From: Halioglobus sp.
GTDB lineage: Bacteria > Pseudomonadota > Gammaproteobacteria > Pseudomonadales > Halieaceae
Reading direction: 5' to 3'
DNA length: 64,000 bases
Assembly (NCBI GenBank): GCA_020443425.1
Contig: JAGRIE010000005.1
Span: 50,476 to 114,475, forward strand
The position numbers and the translations under genes are program-made. Below the pieces are notes generated by a model that was not told where the DNA came from, did no database searches, and was given only the letters and a program-made list of their open reading frames with translations. The stretch's first letter is position 1; every line of letters starts with the position of its first letter. Shown here in pieces: positions 16,389-45,817 of this stretch.

Positions 16389-16408
16389 AAACAATCTATC
16401 GCTTGGTT
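16389..16408 (-). promoter_or_regulatory. Palindromic operator, copy A, over the monooxygenase-operon promoter
   Basis: Read on the minus strand the site is AACCAAGCGATAGATTGTTT, which matches 17 of 20 positions of the copy at 45619-45638. It is an inverted repeat of AACCAA and TTGTTT around 8 bp. It covers most of the spacer and the -10 region of the promoter for the 15263-16330 gene, the classic place for a repressor. Confidence 0.65.
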
Positions 16409-16421
16409 TATTTGATGTCAA
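16393..16421 (-). promoter_or_regulatory. Predicted sigma70 promoter of the 11-gene monooxygenase operon
   Basis: On the minus strand a perfect TTGACA (16421-16416) is followed after 17 bp by TAGATT (16398-16393), four of six matches to TATAAT. Transcription would start about 50 bp before the LLM ATG at 16330. The palindrome at 16389-16408 lies across the spacer and -10. Confidence 0.6.
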
Positions 16422-16611
16422 CCCCGGCGCACTGGCAATTGCCGCCGCGCCGGCCGGATTCAACCCAGAGCGTGCAGCAGACACGGGGAATGCGGCAAAA
16501 ATGAGTCATATAGGCACCTGATTGACGAAAAATGATACTTTCCAGCTATGCGGTGACGACCAAATCGAGACCGACAGCGGCTATCCTTGATGAATTACAC
16601 GCCTTTTTTCC

Positions 16612-16641
16612 TTTACCAAGCAAGTACTAGGTTTATATAAT
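16612..16641 (+). promoter_or_regulatory. Predicted promoter with palindromic operator copy E
   Basis: TTTACC (16612-16617) and a perfect TATAAT (16636-16641) are 18 bp apart and would start transcription about 90 bp before the amidohydrolase ATG. The site TACCAA-N8-TAGGTT at 16614-16633 fills the spacer. It shares ACCAAGCAA with the copy at 45619-45638, though its inner half is less symmetric. Confidence 0.55.
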
Positions 16642-16738
16642 CACCCCGGTTTCGGACGACCGGGCTGCAGGGCGGCTTCGCCCGGGTTAGACTTTCCGCT
16701 GCAACAGCCGGGCAGCATGAGAGATCTGGAGAACAATA

Positions 16739-17986
16739 ATGAAACGCATACTATTCAAAGGCGCCAACCTGCTGGATGGCGACAACCCCGCCAGGCCGGG
16801 AATGAGCGTACTGGTGGAAGGCGAGCGCATCAGCGCGATAGCGCCCGATGCACAGATGGCAGACGTGGCAGCGGACGAGGTGCTGGACCTGGCCGGAGCG
16901 ACGCTGATGCCGGGCATGACCCAGGCCCACTGGCACGGCTCCTACGAGGGCATAGACTTCACCCCGCCCACGGTCGGCCTCGAAAAGCCGCCGGGCTACC
17001 TGATGCTGATCGCGCTGAAGAATGCGCAGCTGGCACTGCAGCTGGGTTACACCAGCCTGATCGGCGCCGCCGTTGGCGACGCACTGGACGCGCAGCTCAA
17101 ACAGGCCATCGCAGACGGTGTGGTGCAGGGGCCGCGTATTATGGCCTGCGGTCGCTGGCTGATCACCACCGGCGACTGCAATGACGACCCGAGCTTCTGG
17201 TGGTGGGATATCGGCAGCATGGGTGCACAGCGTATCTGTGACGGTGCCGATGAGTTCCGCAAGGGCGTGCGCCAGGAGATCAAGGAGGGCGCAGAGGTCG
17301 TTAAAATATTTGCCGACGGCGGCCACGCGCTGATTTATGGCAAGGGGCACAACTCCATGACCAGGGCGGAGCTGGATGCCGTGGTAGAGGCCGCCCACCA
17401 CCGCGGCAAGAAAGTGCGCTCGCACGTCGACACCAAGGCGGGTGTGCTGATGTCGATTGAGGCGGGGGTTGACCTGCTCGATCACGCCGATGAGATGGAC
17501 GAGGAGTGCATCGATGCGATTGTCGACTCAGGCACCTATGTCTGCCCCTCCATGTATTTTCCCAAGGCCCTGATCGAGCGCCTCATCCGCGATGGCCATG
17601 GCCTGGAGAACGGCCCGATGGGGCTGGCCATCCAGCAGGACCTGGCAAACATGTCCAGGGTGTTGCCATACGCTGCGAAAAAAGGCGCCAAGTTCATGAT
17701 CGGTGACGACTGGGGCACGGCGATGACACTGCACGGGGACTACAACAAGGAACTGGAGCTCTACGTAGACGTGGGAGTGCCGGCACTCGATGTGATTCGC
17801 TGGGCGACCAAACACGGGCCCGAGTTCATGGGCCTGGGCGATGAACTGGGCACCGTCAGCGAAGGCAAACTCGCGGACCTGCTGGTGGTGAACGGCGACC
17901 CGAGCCAGGATATCAGCGTACTGGGAGCGCGGGAAAATTTCCTCGCCATTATGAAAGGCGGCGAATTCATCAAGGCCATGGCGTAG
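16739..17986 (+). CDS. Amidohydrolase-superfamily metal-dependent hydrolase
   Basis: A 415-residue amidohydrolase of the imidazolonepropionase-like group. The N-terminal composite beta domain (LFKGANLLDG) leads to TLMPGMTQAHWHGSYEG, where AHWH supplies the HxH metal ligands near residues 62-64. Further ligands are probably the His in KVRSHVDTKAG, the His in DLLDHADE and the Asp in IGDDWGT. The C-terminal LGTVSEGKLADLLVVNGDP is a family hallmark. It hydrolyses a C-N or C-O bond, perhaps an amide, lactone or enol lactone. GGAG lies 7 bp before the ATG. The CoA ligase gene follows 6 bp after its stop, so it probably feeds a carboxylic acid to that ligase. Confidence 0.9.
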   Translation: MKRILFKGANLLDGDNPARPGMSVLVEGERISAIAPDAQMADVAADEVLDLAGATLMPGMTQAHWHGSYEGIDFTPPTVGLEKPPGYLMLIALKNAQLALQLGYTSLIGAAVGDALDAQLKQAIADGVVQGPRIMACGRWLITTGDCNDDPSFWWWDIGSMGAQRICDGADEFRKGVRQEIKEGAEVVKIFADGGHALIYGKGHNSMTRAELDAVVEAAHHRGKKVRSHVDTKAGVLMSIEAGVDLLDHADEMDEECIDAIVDSGTYVCPSMYFPKALIERLIRDGHGLENGPMGLAIQQDLANMSRVLPYAAKKGAKFMIGDDWGTAMTLHGDYNKELELYVDVGVPALDVIRWATKHGPEFMGLGDELGTVSEGKLADLLVVNGDPSQDISVLGARENFLAIMKGGEFIKAMA

Positions 17987-17992
17987 CGCATT

Positions 17993-19564
17993 ATGACGAC
18001 ATCTTCCGCATCCAGGCCACAGGCAACAGATCTCCACGCCCTGCTCCGGGAGCTGGCGCAGCAGTCACCCGACGCGGTCGCCGCTGTCGATCGCAGCTTC
18101 GACCTGCACATGACCTATTCGCAGCTGCTGCAGCGCAGCGGAAAACTGGCCGCCGCCTGGCACCACTGGGGGGTGCAACCGGGCAGCCGGGTCGTCTGGC
18201 TGGGACAGAACAGCGCCAGGGTACTGGAGGGCATTCTCGCCTGTGCACAGCTCGGGGCGATCTTCTGCCCGCTGAACTGGCGGCAGACCACCGCTGAACT
18301 CGAATTCGTCCTGCAGGACCTGGAGCCTGCCCTGGTGATCTGGCAGCAGCAGGAGATCGGCGGGGAACTGGAGTCGCTGCACACCGCGTTCAACAGCCCG
18401 GCGCAGCGCTGGGTGCAGCACGATGGCGACGCCAGCGAGTACGAGGCCAGCCTGCAGGAGAACCACCCGGCGCCACCCGAACGAGCAGTCGAGCCCGGCG
18501 CCGCGGTACTGATGTTGTACACCGCCGCCTTTGCGGGGAAACCCAATGGCGCCGTGCTCAGCCACCGCGCCGTGATGGCGCAGAGCGATGCCTTTGCGAC
18601 CATACGCGATATCGGCACCGATGCCACCTACCTCAATGTGGGGCCGTTGTTTCATGTCGCGACCCTGCTCGAAACCATGGCCACGTTCCAGGCCGGTGCC
18701 TGCAATGTCTTTATCCGCCGCGCCGACGCCCAGGCCATTTGCGAAGCGATCGAACAGGAGGGCTGCACCAGCGCCTTCCTGCTGCCGCCCATCATCGAAC
18801 AGATCATTGACTACAGCAAAAAGCAGACAGTGAACATCACCAGCTTGTGCACGCTGGCCGGCAGCCCCGACTGGAATGCGCTGATCACTGTTGACGAGTC
18901 GCTGTGGGGGCGGTTCCCCTATGGGTTCGGGCAGACAGAAACCTTCGGCTACGCCAGCTACCGGGCGCTGGCACCCGATGGCATAGGCAGCATGGGCAAG
19001 GCCTCTCCGGCAGTGGAGATCGGCATTTTCGACAACGGCGGCACCGCCCTCGCCGCCGGTGAAGTCGGCGAGATCGGGGTGCATGGTGCCACCGTGCTGA
19101 ACGAATACTGGCGCAGGCCGAGCCTGAATGAACAGCGGCGGCTCGGTGACTGGCATCTGTGCAATGACCTGGGCCGACTGGAAGCCGATGGCACGCTGAC
19201 CTTTATCGGGCCCAAGGAGCGCATGATCCGGTCCGGTCAGGAAAACATCTACCCGGCGGAGGTGGAACTGTGCCTGCGCGCCCACCCCGCGCTCGCCGCA
19301 GCGGCCGTGATCGGTGTGCCAGACCCGAAATGGGACCAGAGTGTCAAAGCGATTGTCGTACTCGCCGAGGGCGCGGATGCCGACGCCGAGGAGAATACAG
19401 CCGCAGGCATCATAGGGTACTGCAAACAGCATATCGCGTCTTACAAAAAGCCCAAGCAGGTGGTGTTTGTCGACGCGCTGCCCAAAACCGGCAACGCCAT
19501 TGATTACGCCGCACTGGACCGCGATTTCGGCGGCGGTGGCTACCCGGGCGGGGACCGGCGGTGA
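17993..19564 (+). CDS. Acyl-CoA synthetase-like protein with atypical phosphate loop
   Basis: A 523-residue ANL protein. The phosphate-binding motif, normally YTSGTTGxPKG, reads YTAAFAGKPNGAVLSH starting at Tyr176, losing the Ser-Gly-Thr-Thr core but keeping the Gly-Lys-Pro end. The later motifs are close to normal: FGQTETFGYAS, LCNDLGRLEADGTLTFIGPKERMIRSGQENIYPAEVE, and a C-terminal domain with KTGNAIDYAAL, where the usual catalytic Lys of GKxxK is replaced by Asn-Ala. A similar altered loop occurs in some actinobacterial FadD-like proteins, as I recall. It follows the amidohydrolase closely and precedes two acyl-CoA dehydrogenases. It may be a CoA ligase with changed ATP chemistry or a non-adenylating acyl-binding protein. 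Confidence 0.8.
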   Translation: MTTSSASRPQATDLHALLRELAQQSPDAVAAVDRSFDLHMTYSQLLQRSGKLAAAWHHWGVQPGSRVVWLGQNSARVLEGILACAQLGAIFCPLNWRQTTAELEFVLQDLEPALVIWQQQEIGGELESLHTAFNSPAQRWVQHDGDASEYEASLQENHPAPPERAVEPGAAVLMLYTAAFAGKPNGAVLSHRAVMAQSDAFATIRDIGTDATYLNVGPLFHVATLLETMATFQAGACNVFIRRADAQAICEAIEQEGCTSAFLLPPIIEQIIDYSKKQTVNITSLCTLAGSPDWNALITVDESLWGRFPYGFGQTETFGYASYRALAPDGIGSMGKASPAVEIGIFDNGGTALAAGEVGEIGVHGATVLNEYWRRPSLNEQRRLGDWHLCNDLGRLEADGTLTFIGPKERMIRSGQENIYPAEVELCLRAHPALAAAAVIGVPDPKWDQSVKAIVVLAEGADADAEENTAAGIIGYCKQHIASYKKPKQVVFVDALPKTGNAIDYAALDRDFGGGGYPGGDRR

Positions 19565-19597
19565 GCGATCAGTATCGCGAATAACAGCAGTGCAAGC

Positions 19598-19619
19598 CGC
19601 CGGCTCCCCGGCACCGGCG
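19598..19619 (+). terminator. GC-rich hairpin after the CoA ligase-like gene
   Basis: CGCCGG and CCGGCG form a 6-bp stem around a 10-nt loop, 33 bp after the stop at 19564. There is no T-run, so it could be a weak terminator or a processing site between the ligase and the dehydrogenase genes. Confidence 0.3.
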
Positions 19620-19719
19620 CACGGTAAACGAAAATGCCAATGGATTCTGATGCCCTATCACATTGTCGGCCGTTTTTTATCGTGCATACAATATTTTTTC
19701 TCTACGAAGGTGACACGTA

Positions 19720-20847
19720 ATGGATTTTGGCTTCTCTGAAGATCAGGAAATGCTGCGGGACCAGGTGCGAAAGTTCCTGGACGATCAATGCCCGCTGCCA
19801 CAGGTCCGGACCATTGCGGCGGGTCCCCAGGGCTACTCCCCCGATCTCTGGAAGCAACTGTCCGAACTCGGCTGGCTGGGACTGACGCTGCCGGAGGAAT
19901 ATGGCGGCGTGGGTCTTGACTGGGTGGACCTGGTGATCATTCTGGAGGAGACCGGTCGCACACTGTTCCCCTCACCGCTGGTGTCGACAACACTGGCCGC
20001 CACTGCGATCAATGCATACGGCACTGCGGCGCAGCGGCAACAGTGGCTGCCCGGATTGGCAAGCGGTTCGCACATCGGCACGCTGGCACTGCTGGATGAG
20101 ATCGACTTCCTGTCGCCGGAGGCCATCCGGATGACAGCGACATCCAGCGGCGACAGCTACCGTTTGTCCGGGCAGAAACGCTTTGTACAGGATGCCAGCG
20201 CAGCCGATGTCTTCATCGTTGCATTTCGCAGCGGCGCGGCCGACAGCGATATCGGCCTGGCGATTGTCCCCGCACAGCAGTCCGGGGTCAGTGTCGAGGA
20301 CACCCCGGGCTGGGATCGCACCAAACGCACCGGCGTTCTGACGCTCGAGGATGTCGAGATTTCCCCGGACGCACTGTTGGGCGGCACGATGCTGGGTGCG
20401 CATGCTGTAGAGACACTGGTGGATCGCGGCGCGCTTGCCGTCGCTGCGGAGGCCATCGGTGTCTGCGAGGGCATCCTCAGCCTGACCAGCCAGTACGCTC
20501 TCGACCGCAAACAGTTCGGCTCGCCGATCGGGCGTTACCAGGGCGTCAAACACCCGCTGGCGGAAATGTACGTCGACATCGAATGCATGAAATCCCTGGT
20601 CTACTACGCGGCCTGGACACTGCAGGGTGAGCCGGATGAAGCGCCTGCCGCCATCGCCAAGGCGAAAGCCTACGCCTCGGAGAGCGTCTGCAGCGCCGGC
20701 GTCAACGGGGTGCAGTTACACGGCGCGATCGGCTACACCGACGAGTACGATATGCAGTTGTTTATAAAGCGTTCGAAGTGGTCCCGCGCAACCTATGGCG
20801 ACGAGGATTTCCACTACGATCGAGTCGCCACGTTTGGAGGGCTGTAA
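19720..20847 (+). CDS. Acyl-CoA dehydrogenase, subunit with catalytic Glu
   Basis: A 375-residue acyl-CoA dehydrogenase. The N-terminal helical domain (MDFGFSEDQEMLRDQVRKF), the middle beta domain and the C-terminal block VNGVQLHGAIGYTDEYDMQLFIKRSK are all present; the Glu in TDEYD is at the catalytic-base position. The sequence is nearer to the FadE28/FadE34 style of beta-oxidation enzymes for bulky substrates than to straight-chain enzymes, as far as I can judge from memory. The partner gene begins 2 bp after its stop. In actinobacterial sterol catabolism such adjacent pairs form alpha2-beta2 heterotetramers. AAGGTGA precedes the ATG. Together the pair probably dehydrogenates a branched or ring-bearing acyl-CoA. 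Confidence 0.92.
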   Translation: MDFGFSEDQEMLRDQVRKFLDDQCPLPQVRTIAAGPQGYSPDLWKQLSELGWLGLTLPEEYGGVGLDWVDLVIILEETGRTLFPSPLVSTTLAATAINAYGTAAQRQQWLPGLASGSHIGTLALLDEIDFLSPEAIRMTATSSGDSYRLSGQKRFVQDASAADVFIVAFRSGAADSDIGLAIVPAQQSGVSVEDTPGWDRTKRTGVLTLEDVEISPDALLGGTMLGAHAVETLVDRGALAVAAEAIGVCEGILSLTSQYALDRKQFGSPIGRYQGVKHPLAEMYVDIECMKSLVYYAAWTLQGEPDEAPAAIAKAKAYASESVCSAGVNGVQLHGAIGYTDEYDMQLFIKRSKWSRATYGDEDFHYDRVATFGGL

Positions 20848-20849
20848 CC

Positions 20850-21983
20850 ATGGACTTTGATTTTACCGAGAAAGAGCAGGCATTCAGGGCCGAGGTGAAG
20901 CAGTTCATCGCCGACAACCTGCCACCGCCCGAGCAGCGCGACGAAAACTTTGAACAGCAGTGGCACGCCAAACTGGGCGAGAAAAAATGGATCGGTTTCT
21001 CCTGGCCCCGGGAGCACGGCGGTGGCGGCGGCACACTGATTGAGCAGTTCATCCTCAAGGAGGAGATGTCCAAGGCGATGGCGCCGGACCTGGGCAGTGA
21101 TTTCATGGGCCTGACCTGGGTCGGCCCGGCCCTGATCCGCCACGGCACCGAGGAACAGAAGAAAGAATTCATGCCGGACCTGCTCAACTGTCGCTCCAGT
21201 TGGTGCACAGGCTATTCCGAACCCGATGTCGGCAGCGACCTGGGCTCACTGAAACTACGCGCGGTGCGCGACGGCGACGACTATGTGATCAACGGCTCCA
21301 AGATCTGGACCACCAAAGCGCATGTGGCAAAGTATATATTCCTCACGGTGCGCACAAACCCCGAGGCTGAATCGCGCTACCGCGGTATCAGCGTGCTGCT
21401 GACCCCGATGAACACCCCGGGCATCGAGGTCAGGCCGATTGTGAATATTGTCGGCCTACATCACTTCAACCAGGTGTTTTTCACCGATGTGAGAGTACCG
21501 GTGTCTGCCCGCCTCGGCGCGGAGGGCGAGGGCTGGAAAGTGGTGATGGGCGCGCTGGCCAATGAGCGCTCTGGCATCTCCGAATCCACCGGCATGGAAA
21601 GACATCTGGAGAAGCTGAAAGATCTCGCACGCAAGTCGTTCAAGGGCGGCAAACCGGCGCTGGAAGACGCCGAGGTGCGGCGCAAGATTGCGCGTTTTGA
21701 AACCCAGATCGCCGCCATGCGACTGAACGGGCTGCGCAACCTGACCAAGCAGATCAAGGGCGCCCAGCCCAGCAGTGAAACCTCGGTCAATAAACTGCTG
21801 CGCGGCAAACTGGAAATCCCGATGTCGGACCTGGCGATGGGGTTGCTGGGCAATGAAGCCACCGGCATGGGTGAGTGGCAACACGATTCCTTCAATTTCC
21901 ACGGCACTGTGATAGGCGGCGGCTCGCCCAACATCCAGCGCAATATTATTGCCGAACGCGTGCTGGGATTGCCGAAGGACTGA
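20850..21983 (+). CDS. Acyl-CoA dehydrogenase, partner subunit without catalytic Glu
   Basis: A 377-residue dehydrogenase directly behind the preceding one. The true start is ATG at 20850, with GGAGG 9 bp before it; the frame could be extended upstream by 24 codons, but those overlap the previous gene. It has the FadE29-type N-terminus (IGFSWPREHGGGGGTLIEQFI), the FAD loop GYSEPDVGSDLGSL and KIWTTKAHVAKY. Its C-terminus (GLLGNEATGMGEWQHDSFNF, then GSPNIQRNIIAERVLGLPK) has the final arginine-rich motif but no Glu where the other subunit has TDEYD. One catalytic and one non-catalytic subunit is what is known of heterotetrameric sterol acyl-CoA dehydrogenases. Confidence 0.92.
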   Translation: MDFDFTEKEQAFRAEVKQFIADNLPPPEQRDENFEQQWHAKLGEKKWIGFSWPREHGGGGGTLIEQFILKEEMSKAMAPDLGSDFMGLTWVGPALIRHGTEEQKKEFMPDLLNCRSSWCTGYSEPDVGSDLGSLKLRAVRDGDDYVINGSKIWTTKAHVAKYIFLTVRTNPEAESRYRGISVLLTPMNTPGIEVRPIVNIVGLHHFNQVFFTDVRVPVSARLGAEGEGWKVVMGALANERSGISESTGMERHLEKLKDLARKSFKGGKPALEDAEVRRKIARFETQIAAMRLNGLRNLTKQIKGAQPSSETSVNKLLRGKLEIPMSDLAMGLLGNEATGMGEWQHDSFNFHGTVIGGGSPNIQRNIIAERVLGLPKD

Positions 21984-22027
21984 GCTGACTGACCCGACTT
22001 GACCAATAACAACTACTGAGGCGGCCT

Positions 22028-24187
22028 ATGAACAAGGTAAGAACTGTCAAATCCTTTTGCAAAATCTGTTCGGCCTACTGTGGCATTGAAGTCGATGTCG
22101 CTGATGAACAGATCATCGATATCCGCGGCGACAAGTCCCACCCGATGAGCAAAGGCTATACCTGCATCAAGGGCCGGCAGTGGGCCGACCAGTACCACAA
22201 CGACAATCGCCTGCTGACCGCGCTCAGCAGGCCATCGCGCGAGCAGTCCTTCACTGCGATCGACAACGAGCAGGCACTGGACGAAATCGCCGACAAGCTG
22301 AAAGCGATTATCGACAAGCACGGCCCACGGGCGGTGTCTATCTACCGGGGCAACGGCCTGTCTGTAAGCTCCAACGGCAACCAGGTGGCACAGGCCTGGC
22401 TGGCGGGTATCGGTTCAGAGATGGATTTCAGCAGCATGAGTATCGACCAGCCGTCGAAAATCATCGCCGTCGGCCGCCACGGTGCGTGGGGTGGCGGCAG
22501 TCACGGCTTCGAGGGCGCTGATGTCTGCATGCTGATCGGCAACAACCCGATCATCTCCGCGCTGAATATGTCCGGCGGGCCACCGGGCTGGAACCCGACC
22601 GCGCTCAAGGAGGAGAAAAAACGCGGCCTGAAACTGATCGTCATCGACCCGCGCCGCACTGAAACCGCAGAGCACGCGGATATCTACCTGCCCATTCGCC
22701 CGGGCGAGGACGCCAACCTGCTCGCGGGCATGGTGCGCATCATCATCGAGGAGGAGCTGTACGACAAAGAGTTCGTCGATGCACAGACGGAGGGGTTCGC
22801 CGCGCTGAAGGCCGCCGTAGCGCCGTTCACCCTGGACATGGTCGCCGCGCGCTGCGGCCTGCCGGCGGCAGATATCGCCGCGGCTGCAAGGCTGTTTGCG
22901 ACATCCAGTCGCGGTACCGCCAGCTCAGGTACCGGCCCGGATATGGCGCGCTTCCCACACCTGTCCGAACACCTGATCCTGGCGATGAACACGCTGTGCG
23001 GTCGCTGGAACCGCGAGGGCGATCCCGTCACAGCACCGGGCCTGTTGTCGCCCAATGTGTCCCCGCCGGCACAGGTTATCCCCGCAGATTTCCTGCCCGC
23101 CATGCTGAACCCGGCACTGAATACCAAGACTTCGCGCATCCGCGGTATCAAGCAGGTTTTCGAGGAGATGCCGACGCCGGTCGCCGCGGAGGAAATCCTG
23201 ACCCCGGGCGAGGGCCAGGTAAAAGCGATGATTGTGATCGGCGGCAACCCGGTGATGTCGTGGCCCGACCAGGAGAAGACCGTCGCCGCACTGCAAGAGT
23301 TGGAGCTGCTGGTGTGCATTGATATCAAGCACAGCGCGACCACACCATTCGCCGACTACCTGCTCCCCGCGGCACACGCCTTTGAGCGCGACGGCCTGGC
23401 GGAGTTTACTGATCGGCTGTACAACAAGCCCTTCGGGCAGTACAGCCGGCCGATACTGAAGCCCAGGGGTGCGGTGCAGGAAGAGTGGCGCTACCTCGTG
23501 GGACTGGCGAGGCGACTGGGCACAGAGATCCACCTGGCCGGCGGCCCGATTGCGCTCGACAACGACAACCTCGAGACCCTGGACATACTGGAACTGATGT
23601 TCCCCGACCACGCGGTCAAGGTGCCGATCCGGGAGCTGGCACAGCACGAGGGCGGAAAGCTGTATGAGGAGTTTGCCAATATCAAGGTGGGCCCGCCCTA
23701 TGAGGGGCTGGAAGGCAAGTTACAACTGCTACCGCCCGAGCCGGCACAGGACCTCGTCGAACTGCTGGCCTCCCCCGGCGAGGAGGAGGGCCGCTACGGG
23801 CCGGATGGCAGCTTTACCCACCTGCTGACCGTGCGACGCGTCAAGCATGTCTACAACTCGTCCTGTCACGACTTCGCCAGGAACCCGCCGGGCAACCCGG
23901 CCTACCTGCACCCGGATGACCTGGACGCGCTGGGGTTCAGTCCCGGACAGATCGTTACACTGGCATCGCAGCGCGCCAGTATCCAGGTGGTGGTAGAGGC
24001 GGACAGCACGCTGCGCAGGGGTGTCGTGTCCATGGCACACTGTTTTGGCACGGCGCCGGGCGAGCCCGCCGATGTCACCCGGCTCGGGGCCAATGCCTCC
24101 AGGCTGATCCCGGTGGACAGGGACTTTGACCCCTTGATGGGTATGCCGCGGATGACGGGCTTTGCGGTAAAACTGGCCGCGGTTTAA
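22028..24187 (+). CDS. Molybdopterin-dependent oxidoreductase (DMSO reductase family)
   Basis: A 719-residue catalytic subunit. The N-terminus holds a [4Fe-4S] site with Cys11, Cys14, Cys18 and Cys46 (C-x2-C-x3-C-x27-C), as in formate dehydrogenase and nitrate reductase. Molybdopterin-binding blocks follow: MLIGNNPIISALN, LIVIDPRRTETAEHADIYLPIRPGED, and MIVIGGNPVMSWPDQ; the last 110 residues form the C-terminal dinucleotide-binding domain (VYNSSCHDFARNPPGNPAYLHPDDL). There is no Tat signal, so it is cytoplasmic. The region expected to supply the metal ligand, SMSIDQPSKIIAVGRHGAW, has no Cys or selenocysteine. No small Fe-S or membrane subunit is adjacent; it ends the dehydrogenase operon. It could hydroxylate, hydrate or reduce a pathway compound. 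Confidence 0.9.
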   Translation: MNKVRTVKSFCKICSAYCGIEVDVADEQIIDIRGDKSHPMSKGYTCIKGRQWADQYHNDNRLLTALSRPSREQSFTAIDNEQALDEIADKLKAIIDKHGPRAVSIYRGNGLSVSSNGNQVAQAWLAGIGSEMDFSSMSIDQPSKIIAVGRHGAWGGGSHGFEGADVCMLIGNNPIISALNMSGGPPGWNPTALKEEKKRGLKLIVIDPRRTETAEHADIYLPIRPGEDANLLAGMVRIIIEEELYDKEFVDAQTEGFAALKAAVAPFTLDMVAARCGLPAADIAAAARLFATSSRGTASSGTGPDMARFPHLSEHLILAMNTLCGRWNREGDPVTAPGLLSPNVSPPAQVIPADFLPAMLNPALNTKTSRIRGIKQVFEEMPTPVAAEEILTPGEGQVKAMIVIGGNPVMSWPDQEKTVAALQELELLVCIDIKHSATTPFADYLLPAAHAFERDGLAEFTDRLYNKPFGQYSRPILKPRGAVQEEWRYLVGLARRLGTEIHLAGGPIALDNDNLETLDILELMFPDHAVKVPIRELAQHEGGKLYEEFANIKVGPPYEGLEGKLQLLPPEPAQDLVELLASPGEEEGRYGPDGSFTHLLTVRRVKHVYNSSCHDFARNPPGNPAYLHPDDLDALGFSPGQIVTLASQRASIQVVVEADSTLRRGVVSMAHCFGTAPGEPADVTRLGANASRLIPVDRDFDPLMGMPRMTGFAVKLAAV

Positions 24188-24189: not shown

Positions 24190-24212
24190 ACCCGGGGCTA
24201 CTCGCTCCGGGT
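24190..24212. terminator. Hairpin between convergent genes
   Basis: ACCCGG and CCGGGT form a 6-bp stem with an 11-nt loop directly after the molybdoenzyme stop, overlapping the last codons of the convergent cupin gene. No T-run follows. It is placed where a bidirectional terminator would be expected, but the evidence is weak. Confidence 0.3.
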
Positions 24213-24668
24213 GTCCTGGATCCAGTCCGGCAGGTCGATCGGCGGGTTCGGCAGCTTGCGGGCGCCGCGCTTCGCCAGCAGCGCCTCAAAACCCTCCGGA
24301 TCCGCCGGCCAGGACCGCGGGTCTCCCATCATCACCTCAAACAACTCCACACCCTCCGGGCCCGCTTCCAGCGGGCCCAGCGCTGCGCCCTTCTCCAGCG
24401 TGATGTGCATACCCTCGGTACACAGCACATCGCCGCAGTGCATGCTGCCTTTCAATACATAGATGATGTGGTGGCTCTTGTGGCCGTGCTTGTGCACGAT
24501 CATGCCCGGGTCCCACTTTGCGTAGAGGCACAGGCACTCGGGCGTGAACTCCAGCCATTTCTCCCAGACGGAAACCCGGCGATCCCCGTGCTGCTGGGCG
24601 CGGACCTCCTGCCATTTTTCATCGTCGCGATGGCGGAATCGAAGTTCTGGCTGCTTTTTATCGGTCAT
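24198..24668 (-). CDS. Cupin-domain protein
   Basis: A 156-residue single-domain cupin. The metal motif HKHGHKSHHIIYVLKGSMHCGDVLC gives His59, His61, His63 and His66/67, and the second cupin strand block LEKGAALGPLEAGPEGVELFEV closes the barrel. Cupins of this size include dioxygenases, isomerases and sensors, so activity cannot be assigned. AGGGGAATAGAC precedes the ATG. It is the last gene of the TonB receptor-amidohydrolase-cupin-dioxygenase-transporter operon, and a second cupin is encoded three genes earlier (26875-27291). The two differ in their His spacing and are not close copies. Confidence 0.85.
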   Translation of the reverse strand: MTDKKQPELRFRHRDDEKWQEVRAQQHGDRRVSVWEKWLEFTPECLCLYAKWDPGMIVHKHGHKSHHIIYVLKGSMHCGDVLCTEGMHITLEKGAALGPLEAGPEGVELFEVMMGDPRSWPADPEGFEALLAKRGARKLPNPPIDLPDWIQDTRSE

Positions 24669-24712
24669 GTCTATTCCCCTGTATCAATTGAAATGAAGTG
24701 GTTTGCGGGCGT

Positions 24713-26011
24713 TCAGCTATCGGGTTCCCTGTCCGGCACACGGATCAGGAAAGTGGCCAGGAACGCCAGCGGGAACAGCAGCATCGCGCCCTGGAAAATC
24801 AGCAGGTAACTGCCTGTCTGGTCGTAAATCCAACCGCCCAGGGGCATGGGAAAGACAATCAGCGGCAGCGTCAGCAGGCTCATGTAACCCATGGTGCGCG
24901 CAAATACCAGCCGGCCAAAGCAGGCGCCGACCAGGGCGTTCCACAGCGGCATCACGGCGCCGGAACCCAACCCCAACACCGCGCCTCCCAGCATCATCGC
25001 GGTGAGGCTGTGGGGGCCGAGATAGATGACCCAGAACAGGCTGTTCCACACAATCGCGATACGCAGCAGCAGTCGCTTGTCGTAGCTATCCGCCAGATAG
25101 CCAAAACCCAGTTTCCCCACCATGGCCGTCACCGCGTAGCAGGACATCACCAGCGCCGCCTGCGCCAGACTGAAATCATACTCTGTCGCATACGGCGCGA
25201 AATGTGTCAGGAATACCGCGCCCAGAGAGGCCATGCAGCCGACACAGAGGCCGATTCCCCAGAAACTGCGATTGCTGAGAATCTCCCGCACACCCGCGGA
25301 TGGCGCCTGCGCCACAGCCGTCTCCAACCCGGTGTCCGGCACCGCGAGTCCTGCACCACCATCCACCTCAAGACCGAGATCCCGCGGTGTATTCACGACA
25401 GTGAGGTATACCAGCGGCAGCACCACGAACAGGATACTCAGCGACAGGCAGAACAGGCTGCCGCGCCAGCCAATGGTGAGAATCAGCCAGGCGGCGAGCG
25501 GCGGCAACAGGAAGCCACCCAGCGACGTACCCAGTGTGGAAATACCCAGTGCGCGCCCACGCTGGGCGGAGAACCAGTTGGTGACGAGTTTTGAACTCGG
25601 CAGGTGCCCGAGCATGGCCGCGCCCAAACCCACCAGAAAGACCAGGATAAGCCCCATCTGCCAGATCGCAGTCGCCAGTGACAGGGCACCGAATCCCAGA
25701 CCCATCAGCAGCGCCCCCAGCGACATCGCGTTGCGGATGGAGTGCCTGTCCAGCCAGTGACCGAGCACCGGTGTGACAAACGTCATACTCAGCAGCAGCA
25801 CCGCCAGGCCGGAGGTGACCACCAGCCGCGACGCATCCAGCTCAGTGGCGACCGGCGCGACATAGATGCCGAATATGTAGGAGGTACACCCGACCGCGAT
25901 CAGCTGCGCCAGCACTGTCAGGCCGACAATGCGCCACCCGTAGAAGAGGCGCCTGTCGGCTCCACCACCCGCACCACCTGTGCCCACGTCAAATGCCGAT
26001 CCAGCCGTCAC
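24713..26011 (-). CDS. MFS transporter
   Basis: An integral membrane protein with about 12 predicted transmembrane helices. The first is LFYGWRIVGLTVLAQLI, the cytoplasmic loop after helix 2 reads GHWLDRHSIRN (the MFS A-motif position), and the two six-helix halves are separated by a hydrophilic stretch near VPDTGLETAVAQ. It resembles the monocarboxylate/oxalate-type branch that begins FYGWxIV. The frame is open to an ATG at 26098, but that would overlap the dioxygenase gene by 70 bp; GTG at 26011 lies 18 bp after the dioxygenase stop and is a better guess, though no strong ribosome site decides it. It probably carries the operon's substrate across the inner membrane. Confidence 0.85.
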   Translation of the reverse strand: MTAGSAFDVGTGGAGGGADRRLFYGWRIVGLTVLAQLIAVGCTSYIFGIYVAPVATELDASRLVVTSGLAVLLLSMTFVTPVLGHWLDRHSIRNAMSLGALLMGLGFGALSLATAIWQMGLILVFLVGLGAAMLGHLPSSKLVTNWFSAQRGRALGISTLGTSLGGFLLPPLAAWLILTIGWRGSLFCLSLSILFVVLPLVYLTVVNTPRDLGLEVDGGAGLAVPDTGLETAVAQAPSAGVREILSNRSFWGIGLCVGCMASLGAVFLTHFAPYATEYDFSLAQAALVMSCYAVTAMVGKLGFGYLADSYDKRLLLRIAIVWNSLFWVIYLGPHSLTAMMLGGAVLGLGSGAVMPLWNALVGACFGRLVFARTMGYMSLLTLPLIVFPMPLGGWIYDQTGSYLLIFQGAMLLFPLAFLATFLIRVPDREPDS

Positions 26012-26028
26012 AGCGAGGCTTTCATCGG

Positions 26029-26841
26029 CTACTTGATGGTGACTCGCTGCATCACCCGTCGCTCGGCGTAGTCGGGAACAGCAAAATGCTGCAGACACCG
26101 GTTATCCCAGAAGGCGATGGAATTTTTTCGCCACCGGAACCGGCACTGGTAATCCGGTGATCGCACGTGATCACACAGAAACGGCAGCAGCAGCTCGCTC
26201 TCGCGCTCGGACACGCCTTTCAGGTAGACCGTGGAGTTGCGATTCACATAGAGCGCCTTGCGCTTTGTCTCCGGGTGCGTCAGCACCACCGGGTGCTCCA
26301 CCGGCGGCCACGCCTTTTGCATCTCCGCAAGGTCTGCAGTGCTGTGCCCATCCCGAATGGCCTTGGTCAGGGGACGGGTGATGTCGTGCACAGCCGTCAA
26401 TCCATCCACCAGCACTTTCATCGGCTCCGACAGCGCGTCGTAGGCAGCGTACATATTGGCAAAACAGGTGTCGCCACCGACTGAGGGTAACAGCTCCGCC
26501 TTCAGGATCGATCCCATCGGTGGGTTCGCCATGAAGGTGTTATCGTTATGCCACTGGTCCGCGCCCTCACCCAGCGGCTTGACCTGATCCAGCACGGTGA
26601 TCTCCGGGCGCTCCATATACTTGGTCTTCAGCGGCGGTATGCTGAGTTCCCCAAAGTAGCGGGCAAACGCAATATGCTGGTCCTGGTTGATATCCTGGTC
26701 ATGGAAGAACAACACCAGGTGCTTCAGCAAGGCCTCCCGGATCTGGCTGACCTCTTCCTGCGATAGCGGCTGGGTCAGGTCAACTCCCTCGACCTCGGCG
26801 CCTATGCAGGCTGTTACAGGCTTGACTACGACATTAGACAC
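26029..26841 (-). CDS. TauD/TfdA-family Fe(II)/2-oxoglutarate dioxygenase
   Basis: A 270-residue dioxygenase. The iron triad is His98 and Asp100 in WHNDNTF and a distal His near 252 in CLQHFAVPDY; the arginines in AERRVMQRVTIK serve 2-oxoglutarate binding. The start is GTG at 26841 with GAGGGTG upstream. These enzymes hydroxylate carbon next to a heteroatom, as with taurine or phenoxyacetates, and often release the side group. It is 33 bp after a cupin gene and 18 bp or less before the transporter. It is clearly a paralogue of the dioxygenase at 59723-60574: both share GGDTCFAxM, though the C-terminus here is about 20 residues shorter. Confidence 0.9.
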   Translation of the reverse strand: MSNVVVKPVTACIGAEVEGVDLTQPLSQEEVSQIREALLKHLVLFFHDQDINQDQHIAFARYFGELSIPPLKTKYMERPEITVLDQVKPLGEGADQWHNDNTFMANPPMGSILKAELLPSVGGDTCFANMYAAYDALSEPMKVLVDGLTAVHDITRPLTKAIRDGHSTADLAEMQKAWPPVEHPVVLTHPETKRKALYVNRNSTVYLKGVSERESELLLPFLCDHVRSPDYQCRFRWRKNSIAFWDNRCLQHFAVPDYAERRVMQRVTIK

Positions 26842-26874
26842 AAACGCACCCTCTTCTTAATGAAACTGATTCAA

Positions 26875-27291
26875 TTACGCCTGCTCGCCCATCTCGAACG
26901 TGGCCTCACCGGTTCGAATGGTCATGAAATCCATACCCTCAGGCCCACAGGTAAAACCGTAGCGATACTTCGCATAGAACACGATGCAGTCGCCTTTGCC
27001 CAACTCGATACCGTCATCGAAAGTACATCCGCCCTCCATCACGACAAAGAACTCATCGTGACTGTGGCTGTGCACCGGCACTCGAAAATTCGCTGGCATC
27101 ACCGAGCGGTTCATGTAAAAACCGGCCTGCCCTGTGATCACCTTCTTGCGCTTGGCGCCCATCTCAGCGGCCTTTTTCATCAGGCCGGTCAACTCCTTGG
27201 CCGGGCGCCTGCTCATATCCCAGGGCACCTCGTCGTACTTGATGGCCACAGGGCCCTTGGGCTCTACAACATCCTTTGGTTTATCCGACAT
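26875..27291 (-). CDS. Cupin-domain protein
   Basis: A 138-residue cupin with the classic first motif VPVHSHSHDEFFVVMEGGCTFDDG, giving His74, His76, His78 and Glu80, and the second motif LGKGDCIVFYAKYRYGFTCGPEG. Its core is the standard single barrel, preceded by a charged N-terminal segment of about 45 residues. The ATG has GGAGAG 8 bp before it. It lies between the deacylase-like amidohydrolase and the dioxygenase. It may be a metal-dependent enzyme of the same pathway or a ligand-binding accessory; the sequence does not say which. Confidence 0.85.
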   Translation of the reverse strand: MSDKPKDVVEPKGPVAIKYDEVPWDMSRRPAKELTGLMKKAAEMGAKRKKVITGQAGFYMNRSVMPANFRVPVHSHSHDEFFVVMEGGCTFDDGIELGKGDCIVFYAKYRYGFTCGPEGMDFMTIRTGEATFEMGEQA

Positions 27292-27344
27292 CGCTCACTC
27301 TCTCCTGTTACAACAATCCGTTGCGTGTTCACTGCGCGCCAGGG

Positions 27345-29069: not shown

Positions 29070-29120
29070 GCTTTATATCCCACTAAAACCCGTACAGACT
29101 TCAAAAAACAGTGCCCCGCG

Positions 29121-31349: not shown

Positions 31350-31500
31350 CTGATGAAACTCCGGGGTTGTCTTATTATTGTTGAAGCACCGGCGTCCGTT
31401 TGCTCGCGACGGTGCTTGCTGATCTGTCCTGTTGTGCGCTGCAAGGAGCCTTGGGGAGCGCCGCCATCGCGTGGCCGCAGTGGCGCAGAGCAGTAGCATC

Positions 31501-31520
31501 ACCCTAGCAAACACTTGGTT
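31501..31520 (-). promoter_or_regulatory. Palindromic operator, copy D (weak), with a nested inverted repeat
   Basis: On the minus strand the site is AACCAAGTGTTTGCTAGGGT. One half is perfect and the other is eroded, about 13 of 20 matches to the best copy. A separate perfect inverted repeat, ACACTTG-N10-CAAGTGT at 31511-31534, overlaps it. It is about 150 bp before the receptor ATG. Confidence 0.45.
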
Positions 31521-31759: not shown

Positions 31760-31779
31760 AACCAACCAATCACTTGGCT
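31760..31779 (-). promoter_or_regulatory. Palindromic operator, copy C
   Basis: The site reads AACCAA-N8-TTGGCT on the plus strand, with arms differing at one position and the same 8-bp gap as the other copies. On the minus strand it matches 15 of 20 positions of the copy before the TetR gene. It lies 53 bp beyond the stop of the upstream ligase and 410 bp before the receptor start. Confidence 0.5.
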
Positions 31780-40850: not shown

Positions 40851-42041
<1,191 letters not shown>

Positions 42042-42058
42042 CGCGGCCCCGCCCCCCA

Positions 42059-42231: not shown

Positions 42232-42939
42232 ATGGCCAAATCTGAAGCTCCGCTAATAACGATCAGTACACGGAGCACAAAAACCGCTGAACCTTCAGCC
42301 GTCCCCGCGAACACCACCGCGCCGGCAAAGGCCAAGCTGGGCCGACCCTCGCGGCGAAACCCGGGTGAGACGAGGACGCGAATCCTCAGCAGCGCGTTGA
42401 AGTGTTTCACTGAAAAGGGCTTCGCGGCAACCACTTTTGCCGCCGTCGGTCGCGGCGCAGGCCTGACCGGCCCGGCGATCTACCAGTACTTCGATTCCAA
42501 GGGTGCCCTGTACGCGGCCACCCTGGAGCATATTTATTCCGACCTGGTACCCAGTATCAGCACCACACTGGTCGACAGCCACAGTTTTAAAGACCGGTTG
42601 CACCGTATTTTCGAACTGACCGTGGACCTGCATGAGAGCAACCCGGCGGCAACCGCATTCCTCTCATCGCTACCGGTGGAGGTGCGCCAGGAACCGAGCC
42701 TGAAACAACATTTGTCCAACCGCTCCAGCACCGTGTTATCGGCGCTGACGCGGGTATTCGACGACGCGAAAGCGGCGGGAGAGATTTCCCCGGTCCGCAG
42801 CACCGATAGCCTGACCATGTTTTTTTTCGCCACTGTTATGGGGCTGTGCCTGTATCACCACGCCAGCCAGAAAACAGCAATGCGCGACGTTGTAGAAGTA
42901 TTTTTCGACATCCTGGAAGACAGGCTGATAAACGCATGA
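42232..42939 (+). CDS. TetR-family transcriptional regulator
   Basis: A 235-residue repressor with a 40-residue disordered N-terminal tail (SVPANTTAPAKAKLGRPSRRNPG type) before the DNA-binding domain. The helix-turn-helix reads ILSSALKCFTEKGFAATTFAAVGRGAGLTGPAIYQYFDSKGALY, the usual TetR form. The ligand-binding part has no recognisable subgroup mark. AGGAGAG is 12 bp upstream of the ATG, slightly far. The P450 gene follows after 62 bp on the same strand and a perfect palindrome lies in the promoter region, so autoregulation and control of the P450 by a pathway intermediate are likely. Confidence 0.9.
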   Translation: MAKSEAPLITISTRSTKTAEPSAVPANTTAPAKAKLGRPSRRNPGETRTRILSSALKCFTEKGFAATTFAAVGRGAGLTGPAIYQYFDSKGALYAATLEHIYSDLVPSISTTLVDSHSFKDRLHRIFELTVDLHESNPAATAFLSSLPVEVRQEPSLKQHLSNRSSTVLSALTRVFDDAKAAGEISPVRSTDSLTMFFFATVMGLCLYHHASQKTAMRDVVEVFFDILEDRLINA

Positions 42940-43001
42940 CTGTTTCCAGACAACCATCGACCGACCTGCGAAGCGGGTTAATTTTTTAATCAGGAGAGAC
43001 C

Positions 43002-44258
43002 ATGTCCAGTTGCCCCTATACCAATTTGTTAGACCCGGATCTTTTCGTTAAAGGCAATCACCACCAGGCCATGTTGGACGTGCGCCAGAAGGGAGGCAAT
43101 GTGGTGAAGATTGACGACCCTATCACCGGCGTCCCCTACTGGGCCATCCAGGGGCGCGAGGAGGTGGACTACATCTGCAAGCAACCCCAGCTGTTCTCCA
43201 GCGAGGAGCGCACCGCCATACCGATGGAGACGGACCTCGGGGATATCGAGTCACAGCGACTGATGCTGGTAAATATGGATCCGCCCCGCCACAACAAGTT
43301 GCGTCGCATCGCCCGCGAAGCCTTCATTCCCTCTACCGTGAACTCCTATGAGCCCAAGTTCCGCCAGTATGCAAAAGAGATTGTCGATGTGGTGGCACCG
43401 CGTGGCGAATGCGAGTTCGTGGAAGAAGTGGCCGCTGAGTTGCCGCTGATTGCAATCCTGGAGCTCTGCGGGGTACCCAAGGAAGATCGCAAGCAGTTCT
43501 TCGCCTGGACCAACGCCATGTTTTTCCGCGAGGACGACTCCATGAGCGAGGGTGAGGATAACCGTGCAGCCGCTCACGAGGCGGCGGCCAATATGTACCT
43601 GTACGCCGCCGAACTGGCGCGCCAGCATGAGGAAAAGCCACTCAACAATATTGTCGGCGCGCTGCTCGACGGCAAGGTCAATGGTGAAAAACTGACTTCC
43701 GATGAGTTCTCTGCATTCTTCCTGATGCTGATTGCGGCCGGCAATGAGAGCACACGCTCTGTCACGGCCCACGGCATGCGCCTGCTGATGGAGCACCCTG
43801 ACCAGTTGCAGATGCTGGTGGATAAACCCGAACTGATCCCCTACGCCTGCGAGGAGATCCTGCGGTATAACGCAGCTTTCCTGTGCATGCGCAGAACGGC
43901 TATGGACGATGCCGAAGTCGGCGGCCAGCTGATCAAAAAGGGCGATAAAGTGGTGTTGTTCTGGCACGGCATCAATCGCGACGAGCGCGTATTTGACGAT
44001 CCCATGTCGTTCAATATCAACCGCCACCTGACAATGCCGGACCTGTACAAGGAACACCGCGCATTTGGTTTTGGCACACACTTCTGCCTGGGCTCACACC
44101 TGGCTCGGCTGGAGATGCGGGTGATGTTTGAGGAAATCCTGCCACGCCTGCGCAACCCGACCTTCGCAGGGCCGGTGGAGTATGTTCGCGACTATTTTGT
44201 CAACGGCATCAAGTCAATGCGTATCAAATTCGATCCGGAAACAAGCAAGGAGGCGTAA
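43002..44258 (+). CDS. Cytochrome P450, CYP125/CYP142-like
   Basis: A 418-residue soluble bacterial P450. The I-helix motif is MLIAAGNESTRSV near residue 250, the ExxR pair is in CEEILRYNAAF, and the haem-binding loop FGFGTHFCLGSHLA places the ligand at Cys362. LVNMDPPRHNKLRRIAREAF and the closing FVNGIKSMRIKF resemble the sterol 26-hydroxylases CYP125 and CYP142. Such enzymes oxidise the terminal methyl of a branched side chain with ferredoxin-supplied electrons; no ferredoxin or reductase gene is in the window. AGGAGAG lies close to the ATG. It is behind the TetR gene and followed by an AraC regulator. A terpenoid hydroxylase is the alternative. Confidence 0.93.
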   Translation: MSSCPYTNLLDPDLFVKGNHHQAMLDVRQKGGNVVKIDDPITGVPYWAIQGREEVDYICKQPQLFSSEERTAIPMETDLGDIESQRLMLVNMDPPRHNKLRRIAREAFIPSTVNSYEPKFRQYAKEIVDVVAPRGECEFVEEVAAELPLIAILELCGVPKEDRKQFFAWTNAMFFREDDSMSEGEDNRAAAHEAAANMYLYAAELARQHEEKPLNNIVGALLDGKVNGEKLTSDEFSAFFLMLIAAGNESTRSVTAHGMRLLMEHPDQLQMLVDKPELIPYACEEILRYNAAFLCMRRTAMDDAEVGGQLIKKGDKVVLFWHGINRDERVFDDPMSFNINRHLTMPDLYKEHRAFGFGTHFCLGSHLARLEMRVMFEEILPRLRNPTFAGPVEYVRDYFVNGIKSMRIKFDPETSKEA

Positions 44259-44305
44259 CCTGGCAGCCGGTGCAGCTGCCGGCGCTACAACATGGGGACT
44301 GAGTG

Positions 44306-45388
44306 ATGACTTTAACATTAGATAGAAACAACTCTTTTGATAACGTGGCTCAAGGGAATTCTGCTGTGGATGAAAAAACCCTACCTATACGCCTGGTGAA
44401 AAGCCTGCTGCTCTCGGCGAAGAAGAAGGGCGGCGACATCGAGAAACTGCTCGACGGACTTGATATCTCCTTCAACCCGATCGATCCGACAAAGGTAGAT
44501 GCCCGCATACCCGTGCGGCTGTATTGCAAACTGTTGCGACGCGTGGCGATGCACTCACACCGCCACCTGTTCGGCTTGCCCGTGAATGAAACCGAGCCTG
44601 CGATGGGGCTTCGGTTGATGTGTATGGCACTGCTGTCCTGCGGCAGTATCGAGAAGGCGATTGAGTGCACCGCTGACTTCTATCGCCACTACGGGCACCC
44701 CGGCTGGCGATTCACTGTCGCTCACTGCGGCGACGACGTGGTGCTCAATTTTACCGGTCGCGACAGGGAGGATATGTATGCCTATGATATTTCCTTCCTG
44801 CTGCGGCTCTGGTCCTGGCTGTCAGGACAGTTTATCGAGACAACCGAAGTCAGGTTGATGGAATCACAGAAACAGGAATCGGATACCTACGCCATGCTGT
44901 TCGACTGCGAGGTCCAGTACTGCCAGAGCGAGAACACTGTTCGATTTGACGCCGGCCATTTGCATCGGCCGATCGTGCAGACGGAGGAGTCCCTGACAAA
45001 GCTGTTGGAGGAGGCCCCCTATGAACTGCTGGTCATGTCGCGCAACAGCTTGAAGAGCATCATGGCGAAAATCCGCTTTATTGTCGGCTCAGATTTTTCA
45101 AAAGGCTTCCCCAGCAGGGAAAAGATTTCCGAGATACTGCATATCTCCTCATCCAGCTTGCAGCGCAGGCTGGCCGAGGAAGGGACCAGCTACCAGATGA
45201 TCAAGGATGAAATACGCAAGAACGCCGCCATCAGGTACCTCCACCGCCCCGAACTCAGCGTTGCGGCCACGGCCAGCCTGATGGGCTTCGATGATTCCTG
45301 CGCCTTCAACCGCACGTTCAAACGCTGGACCGGTATGCCACCCGGCTTGTATCGCAAGCACTATCTCACGCCGATGCGCAGTGCATAA
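44306..45388 (+). CDS. AraC-family transcriptional regulator
   Basis: A 360-residue AraC protein of the same plan as the other two in this window: an N-terminal arabinose-binding-like domain (IRLVKSLLLSAKKKGGDIEKLLDGL) and a C-terminal DNA-binding domain with LHISSSSLQRRLAEEGTSYQMIKDEIRKNAAIRYL and FDDSCAFNRTFKRWTGMPPGLYR. GTG at 44303 and ATG at 44306 are adjacent; the ATG is preferred, with GGGGA about 8-11 bp before. The gene begins 47 bp after the P450 stop and may be read with it. It is a candidate activator of P450 or side-chain genes; its target is not shown by the sequence. Confidence 0.9.
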   Translation: MTLTLDRNNSFDNVAQGNSAVDEKTLPIRLVKSLLLSAKKKGGDIEKLLDGLDISFNPIDPTKVDARIPVRLYCKLLRRVAMHSHRHLFGLPVNETEPAMGLRLMCMALLSCGSIEKAIECTADFYRHYGHPGWRFTVAHCGDDVVLNFTGRDREDMYAYDISFLLRLWSWLSGQFIETTEVRLMESQKQESDTYAMLFDCEVQYCQSENTVRFDAGHLHRPIVQTEESLTKLLEEAPYELLVMSRNSLKSIMAKIRFIVGSDFSKGFPSREKISEILHISSSSLQRRLAEEGTSYQMIKDEIRKNAAIRYLHRPELSVAATASLMGFDDSCAFNRTFKRWTGMPPGLYRKHYLTPMRSA

Positions 45389-45817
45389 GCAGCCTGCAAA
45401 CGCGCGCGGGTTGGACGCTCTCTCTCGCGGGCGTGCCGCGCAGTATCAGCCAATCTCGTGTGGCAGGAATAAACCGATCAAGCGCTCTGCCACAGTAAAG
45501 GCACAGGACGACGACTGCACCGCCAGTCGTCAAACTGGAAAAGAGCAGCAATAGATGTTTCGCAGCGCCCTCCCCCGCACTTTCCCACAAAGCGTTGAAT
45601 TCGTACCGCCGGGCATTGAACCAAGCAATCGATTGGTTTAATATCAGGGCACACAGCGTGGCTAGAAAGTAGCTGGCCCGGCAGGCATTTCACGCCCTCC
45701 CCATCGGGGCATCGCGGGCAATCCTGCTGCCGGCAGCCAGTTCGACAGTACAGCGAAACTGCACTGACAACCAGCAAATACGCACTGCTTTTCGCACCAC
45801 CGACGGAGTGCCATGAT
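45389..45817. other. 429-bp intergenic region before the second TetR gene
   Basis: The only clear signal is the promoter/operator at 45616-45644. The remaining 230 bp after the AraC stop and the 170-bp leader before the TetR start hold no frame with a ribosome site and no clear hairpin with a T-run. Confidence 0.6.
45616..45644 (+). promoter_or_regulatory. Promoter with the best palindromic operator (copy B) before the TetR gene
   Basis: TTGAAC (45616-45621) and TAATAT (45639-45644) are 17 bp apart. The palindrome AACCAAGCAATCGATTGGTT at 45619-45638 has perfect 6-bp arms around 8 bp and fills the promoter spacer. A repressor bound there would block RNA polymerase, as expected for autoregulation by the gene starting at 45818. 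The leader would be about 165 nt. Confidence 0.6.

Follow-up and report, generated by a model that had tools for sequence, protein, structure and literature searches.

The window analysed here, 64,000 nucleotides of a Halioglobus sp. genome (assembly GCA_020443425.1, contig JAGRIE010000005.1, positions 50,476 to 114,475), encodes a TetR-family regulator, and five copies of a 20-bp palindrome lie before its gene and before three other operons. Judged from sequence, the system is a KstR2-type regulator and operator, and comparison across genomes supports both the pairing of the two and the membership of four transcription units. The features concerned are these:

45818..46429, plus strand: predicted TetR-family repressor of the KstR2 superclade, 203 amino acids, TTG start, Pfam TetR_N and TetR_C_24
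45619..45638, plus strand: putative operator before the TetR / luciferase-like monooxygenase / GPH-transporter operon, 1 mismatch to the consensus, score 32.3
16389..16408, minus strand: putative operator over the -10 of the 11-gene luciferase-like monooxygenase operon
16614..16633, plus strand: putative operator in the promoter spacer of the amidohydrolase-ligase-acyl-CoA dehydrogenase operon
31501..31520, minus strand: putative operator just before the receptor-amidohydrolase-dioxygenase-transporter operon
31760..31779, minus strand: putative second, upstream operator of the receptor operon
5373..16330, minus strand: 11-gene monooxygenase operon
16739..24187, plus strand: amidohydrolase, coenzyme A (CoA) ligase, two acyl-CoA dehydrogenases and molybdopterin oxidoreductase, taken as an operon from gene orientation
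24198..31514, minus strand: receptor operon, likewise from gene orientation
46529..49609, plus strand: genes after TetR, for a third luciferase-like monooxygenase, a GPH-type transporter and an SRPBCC-type (Polyketide_cyc2) protein

Two of the three luciferase-like monooxygenases are similar to the alpha chains of bacterial luciferase, among other luciferase-like proteins. The 11-gene operon encodes two luciferase-like monooxygenases, a protein without Pfam or NCBIfam match, a short-chain dehydrogenase/reductase (SDR), a FadD3-like CoA ligase, an Ltp-like thiolase, a cyclase-family hydrolase, a ChsH2-type OB protein, a further CoA ligase, a flavin reductase and a Nudix protein. The FadD3-like ligase (11766-13400) scores 513 bits to the FadD3-family model, below the 657 cut-off, and has no match in the PDB at E 1e-80. 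The 374-residue protein encoded at 14142-15266, with no NCBIfam match at 1e-10 and no Pfam match at 1e-5, is 41-45% identical in Alphaproteobacteria and looks by eye like a shortened PaaK-type adenylate-forming enzyme. The receptor operon comprises genes for a TonB-dependent receptor, an amidohydrolase (27345-29069), a TauD-type dioxygenase (26029-26841), an MFS transporter and a small protein (24198-24668).

A preliminary description of this DNA had placed the five 20-mers at 16389, 16614, 31501, 31760 and 45619, and that is exactly where they lie. The palindrome they share is better described as 8-4-8, AACCAAGY-N4-RCTTGGTT, than by the 6-8-6 geometry first proposed; the 45619 site departs from this pattern at one position and the other four at two each. 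The earlier counts of matches to the 45619 site hold for 16389 and 16614 (17 and 14), whereas the 13 and 15 given for 31501 and 31760 are lower-strand counts and become 15/20 and 16/20 on the better strand. A position in a promoter spacer or -10, claimed for three of the five, was found at two: the 16389 site overlaps the -10 of a TTGACA-17-TAGATT promoter, and the 16614 site occupies the spacer of a TTTACC-18-TATAAT promoter. Both 31501 and 31760 precede the receptor operon, the gene at 31832-33478 ending there rather than starting. The 45619 site lies 199 bp before the TetR start, and a site also precedes this gene in two congeners, Halioglobus japonicus BC5_1 (G001) and Halioglobus sp. NAT121 (G013), which suggests autoregulation.

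Could such a pattern arise by chance? With up to three mismatches the window holds five matches against 0.43 expected, and none of 100 shuffles reaches five. The five sites themselves served to define that pattern; matrices trained elsewhere are less dependent on them. A leave-window-out matrix, trained on sites of the two congeners and of five alphaproteobacterial loci, returned exactly these sites as its top five positions in the window (32.3, the maximum, at 45619, then 26.8, 25.0, 24.1 and 21.8), followed by an unrelated palindrome at 42144 with 12.8; the best scores over 20 simulated 64-kb windows were 16.8 and 16.5. Being partly built on orthologous promoters, this matrix is not independent of descent. 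A chance origin of the palindromes is rejected by the shuffles, by this matrix, and by the footprinting and the matrix of published KstR2 operators described below.

Across the complete assembly (4,334,610 bases, 222 contigs) the pattern with at most two mismatches occurs at six sites, five of them in the window, against one for a reversed control pattern. At up to three mismatches there are 15 motif sites and 17 control sites, so we regard the nine with exactly three mismatches as background. All six best sites were judged intergenic; a mechanical open reading frame (ORF) filter recorded contact with an ORF for two of these six and for six of the nine three-mismatch matches. The two contacts are a frame antisense to the neighbouring gene at 16389, which we do not accept as a gene, and a 14-bp overlap with the first codons of the receptor ORF at 31501, where the true start is probably further in. 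This genome-wide comparison of promoters with genes, run with the mismatch pattern and not with a matrix, thus favours the proposed regulon. The sixth site, AAACAAGCGATCGCTTGGTA (L086 8229-8248; G000:C167:188228), precedes an APH-type phosphotransferase gene by about 40 bp; genes for a TonB receptor and a luciferase-like monooxygenase are nearby. As a marker of the regulon the motif alone was rejected, since a match with at most two mismatches occurs in 46 of 57 genomes (this one included), often no more frequently than the reversed control (8 versus 13 in G044, 0 versus 2 in G012).

A scan of named genomes for the TetR gave 20 loci, among them the two congeners. Over three promoter regions aligned with H. 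japonicus, 96 of 100 columns within the sites are identical, compared with 460 of 956 outside; when Halioglobus sp. NAT121 is added the figures are 72/100 and 139/956, the loss falling mainly on the 16614 site. The sites are thus conserved islands within the diverged intergenic DNA of both congeners: 31501 is identical at 20/20 bases in all three genomes, 45619 retains 19/20 in H. japonicus, and 31760 has counterparts in both. In strain NAT121 the TetR is 71% identical. The island is divided there between two contigs, which carry every one of the six sites that this genome has at up to two mismatches: before the monooxygenase operon, the relocated TetR, a TonB receptor, the 46529 orthologue and (two) the amidohydrolase operon. 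The TetR gene of this strain has thus come to adjoin the monooxygenase operon; an operator accompanies it there, and the 46529 orthologue retains another. Four of the seven H. japonicus sites at this threshold lie within the cluster. That operators would be kept before orthologous genes is therefore borne out in both congeners, even where the regulator has moved, and in five alphaproteobacterial genomes as well.

These five, two Rhodospirillales metagenome-assembled genomes (G424 and G425) and the sphingomonads Sphingomonas Y57, Sphingomonas Root720 and Rhizorhabdus histidinilytica, encode TetR orthologues 49-52% identical to the window protein. In every one the first nine genes of the monooxygenase operon follow in the same order near the TetR with an operator in front, so that the operator precedes this operon in all eight genomes examined; the flavin reductase and Nudix genes were not found in the five alphaproteobacterial operons at the cut-off used. 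The third monooxygenase is 48-50% identical in these islands. Scanned with a matrix of Halioglobus sites, 287,585 alphaproteobacterial bases gave 25 matches scoring at least 15, where 0.20 would be expected. Of these, 21 are no more than 300 bp upstream of a gene homologous to one of the window (some of these homologues weakly related, at 26-40% identity), none is inside such a gene and four are elsewhere, one of the four preceding ipdAB with counterparts in two other genomes. Control stretches gave five such matches in 76,713 alphaproteobacterial bases, a figure biased because the stretches had been chosen for holding sites or HIP genes, and none in 120,000 bases of the Halioglobus genome itself. 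The 27345-29069 amidohydrolase is 53-54% identical in all five genomes (the G425 copy has an in-frame stop), each with an upstream match of at least 15, the weakest best match being 15.4; in G424 only, an operator scoring 30.2 lies 50 bp before a 67% identical homologue of the amidohydrolase of the 16739 operon. TonB receptors are among the alphaproteobacterial targets. Both Rhodospirillales genomes also contain a perfect site, AACCAAGCTTCCGCTTGGTT (L170 9148 and L171 9673), where it opens a run of genes that includes acyl-CoA dehydrogenases with about 30% identity to those of the window and to HIP-type ones. The proposal of one TetR, one operator and four transcription units is thus supported by the congeners and the five alphaproteobacterial genomes alike.

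In one respect the preliminary description fell short: it could match regulator and operator to no named system, and KstR2 matches both, by structure search, recognition helix, tree and published operators. The best PDB matches of the 45818-46429 protein are 2ibd (E 3.4e-44), titled only 'possible transcriptional regulator', which we take to be the R. jostii KstR2 protein, and the KstR2 entries 4w97 (E 2.7e-39) and 4w1u (E 3e-39). The window TetR is 36-40% identical to KstR2 over the aligned length, and its recognition helix, GILSGSLYHHF, is the same. In a midpoint-rooted tree of 24 proteins (G027, G029 and G032 having been dropped beforehand), the three Halioglobus, five alphaproteobacterial and four actinobacterial proteins form one group with support 98/95, within which the four actinobacterial members are a subclade (99/97); two long-branched actinobacterial rows (L111, L113) fall outside. 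The presumed effector contacts of KstR2 are R162 and W166 (4W97 numbering). Their equivalents in the window protein are M and S; both residues are kept in all four actinobacterial members of the superclade and both replaced in all eight proteobacterial ones.

The Halioglobus genome has no second close TetR, the next match having E 3.5e-9. Within the genus the regulator is patchy, at 71% identity or more in two of 17 other genomes searched, and a class-wide sample of 369 genomes gave three matches at E 1e-20, this genome and two weak ones (8.0e-22 and 3.4e-24). TetR matches of 22-28% identity in the same family or order were rejected as orthologues, as they form separate clades in the tree.

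For the operator, Kendall et al. (2010, PMC3068626), in the part of the paper available to us, report nine KstR2 sites with the motif AnCAAGnnCTTGnT and gel shifts for three M. tuberculosis probes. We built a matrix from seven distinct actinobacterial operators, dropping two duplicate rows of the nine; it is independent of shared descent, unlike the matrix built on orthologous promoters. Among 63,977 positions of the window it ranks the five sites 1, 2, 3, 4 and 6; rank 5 falls on the 45619 site again, in a shifted register, and no unrelated position scores above 8.6. The top three sites (25.9, 25.7 and 22.0) exceed everything in 50 simulated windows, whose best score is 17.0. Because of this ranking, with three sites above all simulations, we call the operator KstR2-type. 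The exact published inner 14-mer occurs in none of the window sites, in which the outer arms are the more regular palindrome. A published R. jostii site contains AACCAAGCGATTGCTTGGTA, letter for letter the 20-mer at G013:C4:252054.

Two other TetR groups came to light beside similar sites. Seven loci (L090, L091, L092, L096, L097, L099, L100) encode a different subfamily, 22-26% identical to the window protein, with the recognition helix GI[LQ]SGS[LI]F[HY]H[FY]; all seven have the exact KstR2 14-mer about 300 bp or less from the regulator's own gene, five having been partly preselected through pattern matches. This suggests that several TetR subfamilies may share an operator core. In a third group (L093, L094+L095, L098; 58-78% mutual identity), each of three genomes has a one-mismatch site between P450-like and FadD3-like genes.

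We consider it likely, with good confidence, that the KstR2-superclade TetR represses the four units through the five operators and is released by an acyl-CoA of the pathway. The 45818-46429 protein would act as a dimeric TetR-type repressor, binding the 20-bp operators at 16389, 16614, 31501, 31760 and 45619 and there blocking RNA polymerase at the monooxygenase, amidohydrolase-ligase-dehydrogenase, receptor-dioxygenase-transporter and own operons. A blocking role is suggested by operators over a -10 (16389) or in a spacer (16614), the usual place for such a repressor, and the operator ahead of its own gene would make the loop self-limiting. The repressor would let go on binding an acyl-CoA, the inducer being the least certain part; our guess is a thioester made by a CoA ligase of the regulon, for example the FadD3-like enzyme, on the model of KstR2, which responds to HIP-CoA, a product of FadD3 (PMC5380842, in the part consulted). 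Repression, induction and action in concert are what we infer from the arrangement of sites and genes, and a ring compound, derived from a steroid or resembling one, is the probable substrate; the ORFs flanking the alphaproteobacterial monooxygenase operons gave no substrate assignment.

Several observations weigh against this regulon. Consensus promoters were found at two of the five sites, and none at 31501, 31760 or 45619. The 16614 site has three mismatches in H. japonicus and is absent in strain NAT121; three of the seven H. japonicus sites lie outside the cluster, in a genome whose control pattern gives four; and the sixth site of the Halioglobus genome, before the APH-type kinase gene, is without a counterpart shown. 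The motif alone cannot name its reader, as other TetR subfamilies with a similar helix adjoin similar sites. Under the published-KstR2 matrix, finally, 16389 (16.8) and 31760 (12.0, the weakest of the five) score within the range of chance set by the 50 simulated windows. These two weakened sites leave our confidence unchanged, because the evidence from congeners and Alphaproteobacteria stands apart from that matrix.

The strongest competitor, which we nevertheless think unlikely, is that the regulator is KstR2 proper, sensing HIP-CoA, and that the monooxygenase island serves ordinary ring C/D breakdown. Superclade and operator code are the same, and all three Halioglobus genomes carry a HIP-type cluster. 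In the genome of the window it lies elsewhere and encodes two CoA-transferase subunits, an enoyl-CoA hydratase, thiolase and SDR above NCBIfam cut-offs, and FabK-like and IpdE2-like proteins below them; the names ipdABC and the label HIP are our assignment from gene order. In the three sphingomonads, moreover, a site (score 20.7, three mismatches) lies 32-34 bp before the first aligned ipdA residue, directly ahead of ipdAB, and some 7.8 kb past the other HIP-type genes there is another conserved site. Against this, the residues we take to be effector contacts are replaced in all eight proteobacterial members of the superclade, and the HIP-type stretches hold no site scoring at least 13 in any of the three Halioglobus or the two Rhodospirillales genomes. 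Control of HIP (ring C/D) genes, the trait of KstR2, is thus supported by operators in the sphingomonads (3/3) and not in Halioglobus or the Rhodospirillales.

It is less probable still that this is a sterol side-chain regulon like that of actinobacterial KstR. Genes for a CYP125-like P450, a steroid thiolase, a CasI-like ligase and ChsH1/ChsH2-like proteins do sit between the operators, and in the three sphingomonads distant relatives (37-40%) of the block's alcohol and aldehyde dehydrogenase genes have sites in front of them. The divergent side-chain promoter at 36131-36510, however, has no site in three genomes (best scores -10.2 here, -1.0 in G001 and -4.6 in G013; KstR's own motif was not searched), for which reason its operons were rejected as members, and the alphaproteobacterial stretches examined keep the regulon without CYP125, ChsH or Ltp2-type homologues of the block at E 1e-25. 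The P450 itself (43002-44258), in a marine gammaproteobacterium, is close to CYP125, steroid C26 monooxygenase (8vxi, E 1.3e-105), and is followed by an AraC-type gene.

Least credible is that the sites are read by another regulator of this regulator-rich window (a second TetR at 42232-42939, or an AraC-type protein at 4250-5347 or 44303-45388), leaving the KstR2-like protein in control of itself alone. In its favour, both congeners keep the second TetR and the 44303 AraC gene within the cluster. Against it, published KstR2 operators predict the window sites, no more than about 450 bp separate the KstR2-like gene from the operator of the monooxygenase operon in four of five alphaproteobacterial genomes (about 2 kb in G424), and the second TetR has no counterpart on the alphaproteobacterial stretches scanned at E 1e-25, no KstR2 match in the PDB at E 1e-6 and its own conserved AT-rich upstream element. 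Upstream of that gene (42042-42240) we noted an AT-rich palindrome, AATCTATTAATTAATAGATA, poorly kept in the congeners, and an element, TATTAATTAA, kept in three genomes, a possible operator or promoter of the gene; its product has a sub-threshold match (26.8, cut-off 32) to TetR_C_11, a domain reported for EdcR. Elsewhere in the window, a gene for a LuxC-like acyl-CoA reductase (52943-54349; 154 bits, family cut-off 750; 83% identical in G001) lies some kilobases from the luciferase-like monooxygenase genes.

How does the proposed KstR2-superclade regulon compare with known systems? KstR2 (Rv3557c / MSMEG_6009 / ro04598), the actinobacterial HIP ring C/D repressor, shares with it superclade, helix, operator code and an operator before the regulator's own gene; it differs in the R162/W166 equivalents and in its hosts, the window type being found in Alpha- and Gammaproteobacteria, where the Halioglobus targets are a monooxygenase-receptor-dioxygenase island and not HIP-type genes. 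KstR (KstR1), the repressor of sterol side-chain and ring A/B genes, is likewise a TetR of sterol catabolism, and CYP125, thiolase, ChsH and Ltp genes occur in the window; here, however, the side-chain divergent promoter lacks an operator, among solved structures the best matches that carry a name are KstR2, and the best 60 of 77 PDB matches to the window TetR include none named KstR. EdcR of Caenibius tardaugens, from estradiol degradation, is also a TetR repressor of steroid catabolism in a proteobacterium, but has, in the part of its description available (PMC8700777), a TetR_C_11 C-terminal domain and the operator TnnCnnTACnAnTnGTAnnGnnA. The passages of the literature available to us describe KstR2 from actinobacteria, and one discussion of such regulators states that bile-acid-degrading Proteobacteria lack homologues (PMC8399759, that passage). 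A comparative genomics study counted the OM60 clade as one of the putative steroid degraders (PMC4810484, in part), a clade equated in the relevant lines of another paper with the Halieaceae (PMC10100682). Among the matches listed, from which subscription journals are mostly outside, no publication describes a KstR2-type regulon in Halioglobus or sphingomonads.

A wider reading, to which we give even weight for and against, is that the proteobacterial KstR2 branch has kept its DNA code across phyla while sensing another acyl-CoA, and controls an island whose three luciferase-like flavin monooxygenases would open the rings of a compound derived from or resembling a steroid, perhaps through Baeyer-Villiger chemistry. 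The repressor would also govern ipdAB in sphingomonads, which would tie the island to steroid C/D-ring breakdown. If so, a repressor and its operator would have stayed together across phyla as the target genes changed, with a sister of KstR2 reading a near-identical operator in marine Gammaproteobacteria and in Alphaproteobacteria. The conserved monooxygenase operon would also gain a handle, as the inducer of the repressor would reveal an intermediate of the pathway.

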